In this document: positions 31,580 through 37,417 of the stretch, in pieces
Layout of the letters: each line of letters begins with the position of its first letter
Position numbering within the stretch: position 1 is the first letter of the stretch
NCBI GenBank assembly: GCA_016793865.1
Contig: JAEULJ010000007.1
Coordinates: 62,001-126,000 of the forward strand
Source of the DNA: Altererythrobacter sp.
Lineage (GTDB): Bacteria; Pseudomonadota; Alphaproteobacteria; Sphingomonadales; Sphingomonadaceae
Length of the DNA: 64,000 nt
Reading direction: 5' to 3'
Notes under the pieces: model-generated
The model's database searches: none
The model's input: only the letters and a program-made list of their open reading frames with translations
What the model was told of the DNA's origin: nothing
Position numbers and translations under genes: made by a program

Positions 31580-32548
31580 CTAGCCTGCGGTCGCCTCCAG
31601 CATGGCCGCGAAAGCCTCCGCATCGGTGTTTCCGCCGGTAAGGGTGACGACCGTGCCCTCGTCCAGCGGAACCTTGCCTGCAAGCGCCGCCGCCAACGCC
31701 GCCGCGCCGCCGGGCTCCACCACCAGGCGAAGCCGGTCGAACGCGAAGCGCTGGGCGCGCCGCACCTCGTCGTCGCTGACGCTGACCCCCGGCTCCGCGC
31801 GGCGCTTGAGCACCGCGAAATTGATCGGCGCCGTGCTTGGCGTCTGGATGGCGTCGCAGATGGTGCGCGGCGGATTGGCGCCGACACGGACGATCTCCCC
31901 GCGTTCCAGGCTCAGCTTCACATCGTCCCAGCCATCCGGCTCGACCGGGTGGATCGCGGCGCCGGGGCAGGCAAGGGCGAGCCCGGCGGCGAGCCCGCCG
32001 CCACCGCAGCACACCACCATCCGGCTCGGCTCGCGGCCAAGCTGAGCGGCGATCTCGATACCCATGCTCCCCTGGCCCTCGATCACCCAGGGATCGGCAT
32101 AGGCGTGGACCAGCACCCGGCCACGCTCGTCGCACAGGGCATTGGCGATGGCGTCGCGATCTTCGCCGCCGGCGCGGTCGTAGAGAATCACCTCGGCGCC
32201 CAGCGCGCGCGTCGCCGCCAGCTTCACCTTCGGCGCATCGGCCGGCATCACGATGGCGGCCGCTATGCCCAGCTCGCGCGCGGCCCAGGCGACGCCCTGC
32301 GCGTGATTGCCGCTGGAGACGGCGATGACGCCGGCCGCCCGCTCATGCGGCGTGAGGTCGGTCAGCCGGTGCCACGCGCCCCTGATCTTGAAGGCGCCGA
32401 TCGGCTGGAGGACATCGGCCTTGGCATGAATGCGAACGCCGCCGATCTCGATCGGCAGCAGCGGCGTGGGCGGCAGCAGCGCCGCGATCTTTCCGGCGGC
32501 GCGCAGCACGCCGTCATGGGTGGGCTCTCTGGGGCTTTCGCGAAACAT
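31580..32548 (-). CDS. Threonine/serine dehydratase-like PLP enzyme
   Basis: A fold-type II PLP enzyme of 322 residues. The PLP Lys lies in QPIGAFKIRGAWHRL, and the phosphate loop is CCGGGGLAAGLAL. VSSGNHAQGVAWAARELG and EPGGAAALAAAL are also conserved in threonine dehydratases and serine racemases. There is no C-terminal regulatory (ACT) domain, so it is a short catabolic or racemase-like form rather than a feedback-controlled biosynthetic IlvA. Likely reaction: threonine or serine to a 2-oxo acid and ammonia. It diverges from the carboxyspermidine dehydrogenase gene 64 bases away. Confidence 0.85.
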   Translation of the reverse strand: MFRESPREPTHDGVLRAAGKIAALLPPTPLLPIEIGGVRIHAKADVLQPIGAFKIRGAWHRLTDLTPHERAAGVIAVSSGNHAQGVAWAARELGIAAAIVMPADAPKVKLAATRALGAEVILYDRAGGEDRDAIANALCDERGRVLVHAYADPWVIEGQGSMGIEIAAQLGREPSRMVVCCGGGGLAAGLALACPGAAIHPVEPDGWDDVKLSLERGEIVRVGANPPRTICDAIQTPSTAPINFAVLKRRAEPGVSVSDDEVRRAQRFAFDRLRLVVEPGGAAALAAALAGKVPLDEGTVVTLTGGNTDAEAFAAMLEATAG

Positions 32549-32612
32549 CCGGGCCGATTAGGGCGTTGCCCATTCGGCGCCAACACGCGCCTGCCAAGTT
32601 TTCGGAGAAATC

Positions 32613-33836
32613 ATGTCGACAGTCCTGGTAATCGGTGCGGGCGGGGTCAGCTCGGTCTGCGTCCACAAGATGGCCCAAGCGCGTTCGGGGAACGCCGGTA
32701 TCTTCACCGACATTCACCTCGCCAGCCGTACCAAGTCCAAATGCGATGCCATCGCGGACAGTGTGAAGGCACGCACCGGCCAGACGGTCGCGACCTATGA
32801 GATCGACGCCGAGGAGGTGCCGGCAATGGTCAACCTCATCAGGAAGATTCAGCCGAGCCTCGTCGTAAACCTGGCGCTGCCTTACCAGGACCTCCCGATC
32901 ATGGACGCCTGCCTCGAAGCGGGCGTGAACTACCTCGACACCGCGAACTACGAACCCAAGGACGAGGCGAAGTTCGAGTACAAGTGGCAGTGGGCCTATC
33001 ACGACCGCTTCAGGGAAAAGGGGTTGATGGCGCTGCTCGGCTCCGGCTTCGATCCCGGCGTGACCAGCGTGTTCACCATGTGGCTCAAGAAGCACAAGCT
33101 GAAGACCATCCGGCAGCTAGACATCCTCGATTGCAACGGCGGCGATCACGGCCAGCACTTCGCCACCAACTTCAACCCCGAAATCAACATTCGCGAGGTG
33201 ACGGCGCCGGCCCGCCACTGGGAGAACGGCCAGTGGGTCGAAAGCCCGGCGATGGCCAACAAGGTCGGCTTCGACTTCGACGCGGTTGGCCCGAAGAACA
33301 TGTATCTGATGTATCACGAGGAGCTGGAGAGCCTGGCCAGGTTCGTGCCCGAGCTTGAACGCGCGCGGTTCTGGATGACCTTCGGCGACGCCTATATCAC
33401 GCACCTGACCGTGCTCCAGAACGTGGGCATGACCAGCATCGAGCCGATCCGCTACAAGGGGCAGGACATCATCCCGCTCCAGTTCCTGGCCGCCGTCCTG
33501 CCCAAGCCCGAGACTCTGGGCGAGACCACCAAGGGCAACACCAACATCGGTGTCATCGCGACCGGCGAGGCGCTGGATGGTTCGGGCGAGAAGACGTTCT
33601 ACATCAACAATATCTGCTCGCACGAAGCCGCCTATGAGGAGACCGGCAACCAGGCGGTCAGCTACACCACCGGCGTGCCCGCGATGATCGGCAGCGCGAT
33701 GATGGTGACCGGCAAGTGGTCGGGGCAGGGCGTGTTCAACATGGAGGAGCTGGACCCCGATCCCTTCATGGAGATGCTCAATTCCGATGGCCTGCCGTGG
33801 CAGGTGAAGGAACTGCCGGGGCCCGTGGAGTTCTGA
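32613..33836 (+). CDS. Carboxy(nor)spermidine dehydrogenase
   Basis: It reductively joins putrescine (or diaminopropane) to aspartate semialdehyde with NADPH, giving carboxyspermidine. The 407 residues belong to the saccharopine dehydrogenase-like family. VLVIGAGGVSSVCVHKMAQ is the nucleotide site, and LASRTKSKCDAI, GSGFDPGVTSVFTMW, NGGDHGQHFATNFNPE and SYTTGVPAMIGSAMMVTGKW are conserved with the Vibrio enzyme. It starts the polyamine cluster; its stop overlaps the next start (TGATG). A carboxyspermidine decarboxylase lies two genes on and ornithine decarboxylase follows, which supports this role over lysine metabolism. Confidence 0.92.
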   Translation: MSTVLVIGAGGVSSVCVHKMAQARSGNAGIFTDIHLASRTKSKCDAIADSVKARTGQTVATYEIDAEEVPAMVNLIRKIQPSLVVNLALPYQDLPIMDACLEAGVNYLDTANYEPKDEAKFEYKWQWAYHDRFREKGLMALLGSGFDPGVTSVFTMWLKKHKLKTIRQLDILDCNGGDHGQHFATNFNPEINIREVTAPARHWENGQWVESPAMANKVGFDFDAVGPKNMYLMYHEELESLARFVPELERARFWMTFGDAYITHLTVLQNVGMTSIEPIRYKGQDIIPLQFLAAVLPKPETLGETTKGNTNIGVIATGEALDGSGEKTFYINNICSHEAAYEETGNQAVSYTTGVPAMIGSAMMVTGKWSGQGVFNMEELDPDPFMEMLNSDGLPWQVKELPGPVEF

Positions 33837-34822
33837 TGCCCCCACGCTGGCGTTCCGGCGCTACGGTGGCGCGGGCGATGGCGATCCTGTCCGGGCTGGC
33901 ACTTGTCGGTGCCTGCCAGGGACCGCCTCCGGGCGAAGACTTGGCGCGGACCCCGGCGCGGGCGGATTGGGCGGCCTGGCCGCGAGGCGCGGGGGTAGGG
34001 GAAGTAAGCGCGGTCGATGTGGACAGCCACGGCCATGTCTTCGTGCTCCACCGTCCGGGCCGCGACTGGGTTGAGCCGTTCGCCAGCCAGCCGATCGCCG
34101 CGCCGGTCGTGGCTATGTTCGACGCATCCGGCCGGCTGCTGGCCCGGTGGGGCATGGGAGAGACGGTGATGCCGCATGGCCTCTCCGTCGCGCCCGACGA
34201 CAGCGTGTGGATCACTGATGCCGCGCGCGAGCAGATCCTGCGCTTCGGCCATGATGGCACCCTGCTGGACACGATGGGCGAGCGCGGGGTGAGCGGCGAT
34301 GACACGGGGCATTTCGGCCGCCCCACGGATGTCGCTGCCACGCGAGCCGCGCTATATGTAGCGGATGGCTATGCGAACCATCGCATCCTCCGTTTCGCCC
34401 GTACGGTCGATCAGTGGGGAGAGAAGGGCGGGGGAGCCGCAGGACTGGCGATTCCGCATTCGGTGGCCGTCTCGGGCAATCGCGTCGTCGTCGCGGACCG
34501 GGAAAACAGCCGCATCAAGATTTACGACGCCGCCGGCCGCGTGCTGCGCCTGATCCCCGTTCCAGGCCATCCCTATGCAGCCAAGCCGCTTCGCGACGGG
34601 CGTCTCGTCTCGATCGAGGGGCGCGATGCGGCGGATCGCCAGGGCGCGGTGCTGCGGCTGTGGAGCGCCGATGGCCGACAGCTCGCGGCGTTGAACGTCG
34701 CCCCCGATGGCTCGACTCGCGGGCATGACCTTGCGATCGGCGCGGACGGGACCATCTACATTGCCGATGTGGCGGGGCGGCGGGTGCTAACCCTGCCGCT
34801 GTCCAGGCTGACCGGGGATTGA
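33836..34822 (+). CDS. PAL-like beta-propeller lipoprotein (peptidylamidoglycolate lyase family)
   Basis: A 328-residue lipoprotein (LALVGAC, lipidated Cys27) with a six-bladed NHL-type propeller. It matches the catalytic core of eukaryotic peptidyl-alpha-hydroxyglycine alpha-amidating lyase. Zinc ligands are matched by H114 (MPHGLSV), H208 (IPHSVAV) and H297 (GHDLAI), and the catalytic Tyr by Y179 in VADGYANHRI. The two Arg are matched by R73 (VLHRPGRDW) and R222 (VADRENSRIK). PTDVA and GVSGDDTGHF are also shared. PAL cleaves the N-C bond of a carbinolamide, releasing glyoxylate. No partner hydroxylase (PHM) is nearby, so the substrate is unknown. The start overlaps the dehydrogenase stop and the end nearly touches the decarboxylase start, so all three are co-translated. 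Confidence 0.82.
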   Translation: MPPRWRSGATVARAMAILSGLALVGACQGPPPGEDLARTPARADWAAWPRGAGVGEVSAVDVDSHGHVFVLHRPGRDWVEPFASQPIAAPVVAMFDASGRLLARWGMGETVMPHGLSVAPDDSVWITDAAREQILRFGHDGTLLDTMGERGVSGDDTGHFGRPTDVAATRAALYVADGYANHRILRFARTVDQWGEKGGGAAGLAIPHSVAVSGNRVVVADRENSRIKIYDAAGRVLRLIPVPGHPYAAKPLRDGRLVSIEGRDAADRQGAVLRLWSADGRQLAALNVAPDGSTRGHDLAIGADGTIYIADVAGRRVLTLPLSRLTGD

Positions 34823-34824
34823 CC

Positions 34825-36003
34825 ATGGAAACCAGAGCCGGCGATCCCGGCGCCTTCGCGCGTTTCGATCTGGGGCGGGTGGACAGCCCCGCCTTCGTGG
34901 TGGACGCGGCCAGGCTGCGGGCCAACCTCCAGGTGCTGGCCGACATCCGCGATGCCGCCGACATCAAGGTGCTGGCGGCGTTGAAGGCGTTCAGCATGTG
35001 GTCGGTCGCACCGATCATCGGCGAATATCTCGACGGGGTGTGCACCAGCGGGCTGTGGGAGGCGCGGCTCGCGTCCGAGTTCTACGATGGCGAGATCGCC
35101 ACCTATTCCGCCGCCTACAAACCCGACGAACTGGCGGAGGTGTGCCGCCTGTCCGACCATGTCATCTTCAACTCACCCGCCCAGCTCGAACGCTATGCGC
35201 CGCTGCTCGATATCGCGCGCGGTTCGGGCCACACCTTCGACGTCGGGCTGCGCGTGAACCCGCTGTGCCCCTGCGGAGAGGTGCCGCGTTACGACCCGTC
35301 CAGCCCCGGCAGCCGGCTGGGCTTCCCGATCGACCAGCTCACGCCCGAAATCATGGAGCAGGTGGACGGCATACACTTCCACAATTTGTGCGAGCAGGAT
35401 TTCGAGCCGCTGCGGCGGACCTGGGACACTGTGTTCGACGCCATCGAACCGTGGTTCGGCGAGCTGAAGTGGATCAACATGGGCGGCGGCCACCACATCA
35501 CCCGCGCCGATTACCAGCGCGACGAGCTGATCGAGTTCCTGCGTGATGCCAAAGAGGACACCGGCGCCGAAATCTATATTGAGCCGGGGGAGGCGGTGGC
35601 GCTCGATGCCGGCATACTGGTCGGCACCGTGCTCGATACCGGTTGGAACGGCGTGCCCTTCGCCATCACCGACGTTTCCGCGACCTGCCATATGCCCGAT
35701 GTGATCGAGGCGCCCTACCGCCCCGCCATGCTGGGCGAAGCGGAGGCGGGGCAGGGCGATGCGGTGCGGCTGGGCGGCCCATCCTGCCTGGCGGGGGACG
35801 TGATCGGCGATTATCGCCTGCCGGTGCCATGCGAGCCGGGCGCGCGCTTCGCCTTCCTCGACCAGGCGCATTATTCGATGGTCAAGACCAACACCTTCAA
35901 CGGCGTTCCGCTTCCTTCGATCTGGCTGTGGGACAGCGACAGCGACGATCTCCAGCAGGTGAAATCCTTCGGATACGAGGACTTCCGCGACCGGCTGAGC
36001 TGA
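34825..36003 (+). CDS. nspC: Carboxy(nor)spermidine decarboxylase
   Basis: It decarboxylates carboxyspermidine to spermidine. The 392 residues have the alanine racemase-like fold of group IV decarboxylases. The PLP Lys is K54 (VLAALKAFSMW). Also present are SGLWEARLASEFY, GLRVNPLCPCGEVPRYDP, the glycine loop NMGGGHHITRADY, and GGPSCLAGDV plus LDQAHYSMVKTNTFNG, which are typical of NspC. The ATG at 34825 lies two bases after the lipoprotein stop with a CGGGG run upstream. The gene is third in the operon. Confidence 0.94.
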   Translation: METRAGDPGAFARFDLGRVDSPAFVVDAARLRANLQVLADIRDAADIKVLAALKAFSMWSVAPIIGEYLDGVCTSGLWEARLASEFYDGEIATYSAAYKPDELAEVCRLSDHVIFNSPAQLERYAPLLDIARGSGHTFDVGLRVNPLCPCGEVPRYDPSSPGSRLGFPIDQLTPEIMEQVDGIHFHNLCEQDFEPLRRTWDTVFDAIEPWFGELKWINMGGGHHITRADYQRDELIEFLRDAKEDTGAEIYIEPGEAVALDAGILVGTVLDTGWNGVPFAITDVSATCHMPDVIEAPYRPAMLGEAEAGQGDAVRLGGPSCLAGDVIGDYRLPVPCEPGARFAFLDQAHYSMVKTNTFNGVPLPSIWLWDSDSDDLQQVKSFGYEDFRDRLS

Positions 36004-36072
36004 GCCGCTGGCGCCGGCCCGGCGGGCGCCCGCAACTGTGGTCGCCGAACGCCCGCGGGAGCCCAAGTTTAA

Positions 36073-36099
36073 CTTGCGGTTCAGGGGCGAATCTATATA
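36073..36099 (+). promoter_or_regulatory. Candidate promoter of the ornithine decarboxylase gene
   Basis: CTTGCGG (36073-36079) and CTATAT (36093-36098) with a 13-base gap resemble the alphaproteobacterial housekeeping pattern (TTGACGS, 10-14 bases, GCTANAWC). Transcription from here would begin near 36105 and give a leader of about 110 bases. Confidence 0.45.
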
Positions 36100-36104
36100 G
36101 GCGC

Positions 36105-36214
36105 CGCTTCGCAGCCCCAAGGGGACTTCCTAACCGCAAGGCTGCGCTGTTCGCCGGGATTTTCGATCCGAAACGCCCGTCGTCGAAACTAACCGTTCTA
36201 GGGGGTCCCTTGAG
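36105..36214 (+). promoter_or_regulatory. Structured leader of ornithine decarboxylase; helix covers the ribosome binding site
   Basis: CAAGGGGACTTCCTA (36118-36132) can pair with TAGGGGGTCCCTTG (36199-36212): 12 Watson-Crick and two G-U pairs with one bulged G. The 3' strand contains the AGGGGG Shine-Dalgarno of the TTG start at 36215, so this helix would block translation. A competing 7-pair helix, CGCAGCC (36110-36116) with GGCTGCG (36140-46), places the blocking strand in a loop. A small hairpin GGAT/ATCC (36157-36160 with 36166-36169) lies inside. Alphaproteobacteria are known to carry a speF leader RNA (Rfam) before ornithine decarboxylase genes. This is a candidate member or an analogue. 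Confidence 0.6.
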
Positions 36215-37417
36215 TTGCACCATCATCCTGACGCACGGTCTGTAGTTCGCGCCCTCGCGCCCGACGAGCCCGTCATTCTGAACCGCCCGCACGCCGCTGC
36301 GCGCGCTGCCCGCTTCTTCGTGGAGAAGTTTCCGGGCCGCTCGCTCTATGCGGTCAAGGCCAATCCCTCGCCCGATCTGATCGAGGTGCTGTGGGCGAGC
36401 GGAATCACGCATTTCGATGTCGCGTCCATCGCCGAGGTGCGGCTGGTGCGCGACCTGCTGCCCGATGCGGTGCTGTGCTTCATGCACCCGGTGAAGGCGC
36501 CCGGCGCCATCCGCGAGGCCTATTTTGAGCACGGCGTGCGCACCTTCAGCCTCGATTCGACCGAGGAGCTGGAGAAGATCGTGGAGGCGACCCGCGGCGC
36601 CGACGGTGAAGCCGCGAGCGATCTGCGGCTGTGCGTCCGGCTGCGCGTCTCGTCCGAATATTCCGAGCTCTCGCTCGCCAGCAAGTTCGGCTGCGACCTG
36701 ACGGAAGCGCCCGTGCTGCTCCAGCAGTCGCGCCAATATGCCGACTGGCTGGGTGTCTGCTTCCACGTCGGCAGCCAGGCGATGACCCCGTTCGCCTTCG
36801 TCCAGGCGCTCGAGCGCACGCGTGCCGCGATCGCCGAGGCTTCGGTCGTGATCGACATGATCGATGTGGGCGGCGGTTTTCCCAGCGTCTATCCGGGGAT
36901 GGAGCCACCGCCGCTGGAGGATTACTTCACCATCATCCACCGCCAGTTCGAGGCTCTTCCGATCGCCTACAACGCGGAGCTGTGGTGCGAGCCGGGCCGC
37001 GCGTTGAGCGCGGAGTATTCCTCGCTGATCGTGCGCGTCGAGAAGCGCCGGGGCGATGAACTCTACATCAACGACGGCGCCTATGGCGCGTTGTTCGATG
37101 CCGCGCATGTGGGGTGGAAGTTCCCCGTGCGCGCGCTTGAGGACGATCTCATCAAGCCGGTGCAGGATTTCGCCTTCTACGGCCCCACCTGCGACGATGC
37201 CGACTACATGGAAGGTCCGTTTTCGCTTCCGTCGGACATCCAGGCGGGGGACTATATCGAGATCGGTATGCTTGGCGCCTATGGAGCGGCGATGAAGACC
37301 GAATTCAACGGCTTCGGCGCCTCGCCCCGCATTATCGTCGAGGACGAGCCGATGGCGAGCCTGTACGATGGCAGCCGCCGTCGCGAGGTGCGCGACAACG
37401 TCGTCAGCCTGCGTTGA
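36215..37417 (+). CDS. Ornithine decarboxylase (group IV, alanine racemase fold)
   Basis: It decarboxylates ornithine to putrescine, the substrate of the dehydrogenase at 32613. The 400 residues show the PLP Lys48 in YAVKANPSPDLIE. THFDVASIAEV, CFHVGSQAMTPFAF, the phosphate loop IDVGGGFPSVYPG, CEPGRALSAEY and YINDGAYGALFD are also present, as is the active-site Cys loop YGPTCDDAD. Some relatives also accept lysine. The start is TTG at 36215 with AGGGGG ten bases upstream; no ATG or GTG exists before the PLP motif. The unusual start and the leader helix both point to control at translation. It lies 211 bases after nspC with its own likely promoter. Confidence 0.93.
   Translation: MHHHPDARSVVRALAPDEPVILNRPHAAARAARFFVEKFPGRSLYAVKANPSPDLIEVLWASGITHFDVASIAEVRLVRDLLPDAVLCFMHPVKAPGAIREAYFEHGVRTFSLDSTEELEKIVEATRGADGEAASDLRLCVRLRVSSEYSELSLASKFGCDLTEAPVLLQQSRQYADWLGVCFHVGSQAMTPFAFVQALERTRAAIAEASVVIDMIDVGGGFPSVYPGMEPPPLEDYFTIIHRQFEALPIAYNAELWCEPGRALSAEYSSLIVRVEKRRGDELYINDGAYGALFDAAHVGWKFPVRALEDDLIKPVQDFAFYGPTCDDADYMEGPFSLPSDIQAGDYIEIGMLGAYGAAMKTEFNGFGASPRIIVEDEPMASLYDGSRRREVRDNVVSLR

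Follow-up and report, generated by a model that had tools for sequence, protein, structure and literature searches.

In animals, the second half of peptide-hormone amidation is carried out by peptidyl-alpha-hydroxyglycine amidating lyase (PAL). The rat enzyme, the PAL domain of peptidylglycine alpha-amidating monooxygenase (3FVZ), is a six-bladed NHL propeller that contains disulfides, is destined for the secretory space and has three zinc histidines, a tyrosine, two arginines and an aspartate after the third histidine. Here we describe a PAL-like gene from Altererythrobacter sp. (contig JAEULJ010000007.1, positions 62,001 to 126,000, the 64,000 nucleotides referred to as the window), which occupies positions 33836..34822 of the forward strand. 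Its product shares with rat PAL the predicted fold, the seven residues and a predicted secretory destination, and differs in being 28% to 32% identical, a predicted lipoprotein with a single cysteine and no PHM domain, encoded in a row with carboxyspermidine genes. This PAL-family envelope protein is probably catalytic, and on balance we favour its assignment as an envelope zinc lyase for carbinolamides of the alpha-hydroxyglycine type.

Two other systems are comparable. Streptogramin B lyase Vgb (2QC5) is likewise a bacterial beta-propeller lyase, but it stands only at rank 37 in the Foldseek search, with 11% identity, and the Pfam match is under the cut-off. The bacterial N-(hydroxymethyl)guanidine lyase MgdL accelerates the decay of a hemiaminal C-N compound, is partnered by a dioxygenase from an adjacent gene and, in the words of its authors, has no sequence homology to PAL (PMC12508155); it resembles the present case as a dedicated bacterial lyase with a related kind of chemistry. 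No function of a bacterial PAL is described in the titles and opening abstracts retrieved by searches of the PMC literature, a scope to which subscription papers do not belong. Among individual papers, PMC6669573 concerns scorpion enzymes, 'bacteri' is absent from PMC6529398, and PMC8503589 makes no mention of Erythrobacter, Sphingo or alphaproteobact.

The closest solved relative of the protein is PAL by sequence, profile and predicted fold alike. The two top PDB sequences in phmmer were PAM/PAL entries (3fvz, 4e-25; 5wm0, 5e-24), other NHL propellers ranked lower (best 4.8e-21), and 3fvz reached 2.1e-70 against a profile of 46 homologues. The homology to PAL proposed in the sequence-only reading, an earlier annotation made from the letters of the window, is borne out by these results, and the protein is a member of the PAL-like NHL-propeller group, the relation being one of fold. 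A search of its own genome gave a single match.

The six residues expected of a PAL active site are all present. In the alignment, R73, H114, Y179, H208, R222 and H297 correspond to positions 42, 94, 163, 199, 215 and 295 of the 3fvz chain, whose spacing from the first is 52, 121, 157, 173 and 253; this is the spacing of what we take to be R533, H585, Y654, H690, R706 and H786 of rat PAL, and the roles of zinc ligands (three His), catalytic residue (Tyr) and the two Arg are presumably those of the rat enzyme. All six, together with D298, are kept in 39 of 39 clade relatives (36 of them distinct, since L068/L156, L069/L155 and L074/L150 share an identical core). Only 49 of 296 columns are invariant in these relatives plus the query, and the six sites are all among them, for which the chance is 1.6e-5 if columns are taken as equal. 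In the predicted model, strands begin at 113, 207 and 296, so that H114, H208 and H297 each occupy the second place of one; we interpret them as the innermost strands of blades 2, 4 and 6, which would give a three-fold arrangement about the axis.

At the N-terminus, basic residues are followed by a hydrophobic segment and the lipobox VGAC; 38 of the 39 clade relatives also have a lipobox pattern. The earlier assignment as a lipoprotein is upheld by this pattern, and the protein is predicted to be secreted and membrane-anchored.

From these features a mechanism can be proposed by analogy with PAL. H114, H208 and H297 would hold one zinc at the propeller centre, and the zinc would bind the alpha-hydroxyl of an N-acyl-alpha-hydroxyglycine-like carbinolamide. 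Tyr179 would act as the base while Arg73 and Arg222 hold the carboxylate and charge, and breakage of the C-N bond would release glyoxylate together with an amine or amide. As for the hydroxylated substrate, it would be taken from the surroundings or be made by some oxidase that is not PHM. The zinc, the lyase activity, the substrate class and the residue roles are thus putative assignments drawn from the comparison with PAL.

Several observations weigh against this assignment. Cys27 of the lipobox is the only cysteine of the protein, so that the disulfides of rat PAL have no counterpart. The residue set is not fixed in the wider group, because a Mesorhizobium relative has Asp at the second Arg and a Woeseiaceae relative (L106) has Ser at the first (site 73), and the Asp after the third His occurs in only 27 of the 46 wider homologues. 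The PHM domain PF03712, the only PHM domain searched, gave no match in the 60 genus genomes or in the 149 family genomes, which agrees with the earlier remark that no PHM gene is nearby. None of the built-in control genomes of the genus, family and 35-genome searches gave a match; PF03712 did match 10 of 35 genomes with PAL-like genes (0 of the 5 Erythrobacteraceae among them), so the search can detect the domain, these hits being matches not identified as PHM. No oxidase is constantly adjacent to the gene either, which leaves no evident source for a hydroxylated substrate.

The foremost alternative is a propeller that is non-catalytic or catalytic in another way: a lipoprotein that serves in the periplasm for binding or as a scaffold and retains the PAL metal site for a ligand, or for another reaction such as a streptogramin-lyase-like elimination. 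We regard it as unlikely, though deserving of serious attention. The invariance of the six residues argues against a scaffold, in which Tyr and both Arg would hardly be kept, and the remote position of 2qc5 argues against an elimination of the streptogramin-lyase type.

The gene arrangement around the PAL-like gene is as follows.

32613..33836, forward strand: carboxy(nor)spermidine dehydrogenase-like protein with the saccharopine dehydrogenase fold (Pfam Sacchrp_dh_C, 1.2e-42; Sacchrp_dh_NADP, 3.8e-30)
33836..34822, forward strand: PAL-like six-bladed NHL propeller lipoprotein, 328 residues, with R73, H114, Y179, H208, R222, H297 and D298
33836..33916, forward strand: lipoprotein signal peptide, as predicted from the sequence; it closes with the lipobox VGAC, whose Cys27 would carry the lipid
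34825..36003, forward strand: carboxy(nor)spermidine decarboxylase-like protein, a pyridoxal phosphate (PLP) decarboxylase (Pfam Orn_DAP_Arg_deC, 9.5e-9)
36215..37417, forward strand: ornithine/DAP/arginine-group PLP decarboxylase, which follows after a gap of 211 bases (Pfam Orn_Arg_deC_N, 1.8e-34)

As had been noted earlier, the reading frame 33836..34822 begins with an ATG whose first base is also the last of the dehydrogenase TGA, and only two bases separate its stop from the ATG of the decarboxylase gene at 34825. The carboxyspermidine names of both flanking enzymes are likely rather than settled, because their NCBIfam scores are under the cut-offs (376 bits against carboxynorspermidine synthase, cut-off 800; 373 bits against nspC, cut-off 409). 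The top NCBIfam match of the last decarboxylase is lysA, at 129.6 bits also below its cut-off of 297.9, and a role in putrescine supply would be a guess. A promoter and terminator scan of 32400-36300 gave 0 promoter-like sites (0.5 expected) and 3 terminator-like sites, every one on the minus strand (1.9 expected). The scan was uninformative and co-transcription has therefore to be argued from the overlaps alone, which suggest that the PAL-like gene is probably co-transcribed with the dehydrogenase and decarboxylase genes.

The distribution of this arrangement was followed in a genus sample of 60 genomes (including that of L150, whose PAL is identical to that of Qipengyuania pacifica, L074), in a named-genome scan of 77 loci that overlaps with it in species, and in a wider family draw of 149 genomes. 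In the genus sample, matches were obtained for the PAL-like protein in 37 genomes and for the dehydrogenase and the decarboxylase in 59 each. Counting the best match per genome, the PAL-like gene lies between both enzyme genes on the same strand in all 37 carriers and has no internal stop in any of them; the match ends less than 80 bases from the decarboxylase in 32 of the 37, and in 12 its start overlaps, or lies at most 83 bases from, the dehydrogenase end. G198 and G227 each have a second, weaker match elsewhere, at 33% identity in the former and as a fragment interrupted by stops in the latter. Among the 77 loci the order dehydrogenase-PAL-decarboxylase is found in 32, namely all 30 with Erythrobacteraceae names and the metagenome bins L069 (Proteobacteria) and L089 (Sphingomonadales), and neither enzyme lies within the covered flanks, some of them short, of the other 45. 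In the family draw a PAL match of any kind was found in 18 genomes and the dehydrogenase in 82, and the gene was seen between both enzymes in three (its own genome, G078 and G019); G127 has a 40% homologue, and the dehydrogenase search lists none for it. The position between the two enzymes, on which the sequence-only reading relied, accordingly recurs in carriers, but presence beside the enzymes is not constant: the gene is absent from 22 of the 59 genus genomes with the dehydrogenase. Together with the three positives against 82 dehydrogenase carriers in the family draw, this goes part of the way towards the loss in most relatives that the sequence-only reading had named as evidence against itself.

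In a quick-method tree of 72 rows, where long branches are flagged for PAL, L100 and some further rows, the 34 included sequences from such loci form one clade with support of 100, so that one origin followed by many losses is the simplest history. Over 30 loci the two flanking enzymes have median pairwise identities of 89% and 81% and the PAL-like protein one of 57%, so that the PAL-like gene evolves faster than its neighbours.

Between the dehydrogenase and the decarboxylase, these bacteria have a hotspot for accessory genes (examples are 33836-34822 in the window, L066:1419-6085, L059:6037-8253 and L024:10068-11417). The length of this interval in the genus ranges from 2 bases to 5.6 kb. 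Of the 22 genus genomes with the dehydrogenase but without PAL, one (G231) has the enzymes apart, and the other 21 have intervals of 2-3778 bases, four of them of 2-13. The cargo of carriers and non-carriers, for which one representative per family was scanned and further copies were matched by eye, includes a DMT_6 permease, PDDEXK_3, a macro domain, an MPAB_Lcp-type oxygenase with a TetR regulator, DUF5694, S41/PDZ, an alpha/beta hydrolase, and a Cys-rich lipoprotein and a 161-residue protein, both without a Pfam match. DMT_6 occurs in 4 of the 60 genus genomes, twice inside the interval, and macro domains in 5, of which three high-scoring ones are inside the interval and two weaker ones elsewhere. 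The small Cys-rich lipoprotein recurs, as judged by eye, between dehydrogenase and PAL (L100:7059-7469, L077:7597-8034, L078:7576-8001 and L088:7552-7971), and a similar copy without a Pfam match is present in G078 (L066:5658-6122). An interpretation of the interval as a polyamine gene set was rejected, as the cargo has no common theme. Since the interval gathers genes, the 'locked' position claimed earlier for the PAL-like gene is partly a property of the place, and position alone is no tie between PAL and polyamines.

These results bear on the proposal that the protein is a polyamine-linked PAL, which would split an N-alkylated or N-acylated alpha-hydroxyglycine from a polyamine or conjugate and would owe its operon position to that role. 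The proposal draws on the constant address in the 37 genus carriers, the close spacing to the decarboxylase in 32 of them and the order kept in all loci with Erythrobacteraceae names, and it is opposed by the 22 genus genomes in which the dehydrogenase does without PAL, the 45 loci in which neither enzyme was found within the covered flanks, the many unrelated genes of the interval (the three high-scoring macro-domain genes among them), the export signal on PAL with none annotated on the polyamine enzymes, and the chemistry of carboxyspermidine, which has no glycine unit. We consider it rather doubtful; the hotspot has removed most of the force of the earlier polyamine connection, and a polyamine substrate, which no evidence here requires, would be speculation. 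There is likewise a slim prospect of a PHM-independent PAL pathway in which the envelope lipoprotein would cleave carbinolamides that arise when amines or amides, polyamines for instance, combine with glyoxylate or with an oxidised glycine end, in co-expression with spermidine synthesis; if true, it would mean that amidation chemistry is used outside peptide hormones. A pure hitchhiker, parked in a recombination hotspot with no selected function, would suit the patchy presence and the hypervariable interval and is highly improbable in view of the reading frame free of internal stops in all 37 genus carriers, the invariant active-site residues and the single origin. The history is best explained by an old Erythrobacteraceae accessory gene that has been kept in or lost from the hotspot, and the favoured function for its product is still that of an envelope carbinolamide lyase.

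PAL-like proteins with all six residues are present in several bacterial phyla. The full set is complete in 40 of the 46 wider homologues, in 12 of the 16 distant ones that came from the family search and in 3 of the 4 plasmid-borne ones viewed, and it is therefore not special to the carboxyspermidine operon. Of the six wider rows without it, L108, L128, L133 and L143 are truncated or broken extractions, L137 has no start, and L106 truly has Ser. Among the distant rows (L020 was left out, and L022 is the gene of L008), in three of the four exceptions Tyr is replaced by His and the last His by Glu, and L016 looks misaligned. In a same-family relative (L028:9323-10822), which has His in place of Tyr and Glu in place of the third His, an N-terminal extension with a cytochrome-like CxxCH precedes the propeller.

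Some NCBI records already label such proteins as PAL 'family protein'. They belong to the same fold family, with 26-32% identity to the query in the four rows bearing the name, and their surroundings vary, no carboxyspermidine gene being annotated in the four regions viewed. In 44 wider loci (those of the named-genome scan minus L143 and the 32 with the operon order), each neighbour family is limited to 5 loci at most, apart from PAL and its reverse-strand open reading frames (ORFs); neighbours were taken by a longest-ORF rule, under which small genes may escape and a reverse-strand ORF was chosen over PAL in 11 loci. The neighbours named by eye are an esterase and an amidohydrolase-aminotransferase fusion, and no common theme was seen among neighbours read by eye near the distant homologues L025, L157, L158, L159 and L162.

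That so many bacterial proteins possess the catalytic residues, in this lineage with PHM undetected, suggests a possibly wider bacterial use of carbinolamide cleavage, on substrates that the literature found does not name. The Erythrobacteraceae lineage offers a compact case with a fixed genomic address, and a hotspot between two enzymes of one pathway is a warning against inferring function from gene order.

Two further neighbourhoods were recorded. A Mesorhizobium PAL-family gene (L163:5947-6858), with Asp for the second Arg, adjoins genes for ectoine uptake and breakdown. Among the four plasmid homologues, the one from Sulfitobacter bears the name 'peptidylglycine monooxygenase'. In Sulfitobacter pontiacus, a plasmid-borne PAL-like gene with the six residues (L165:4592-6648) overlaps an amidase gene by 4 bases, and the two adjoin TRAP transporter genes; the overlap would suit an amide-releasing lyase that hands its amide to the amidase, and the two genes are possibly a lyase-amidase pair.
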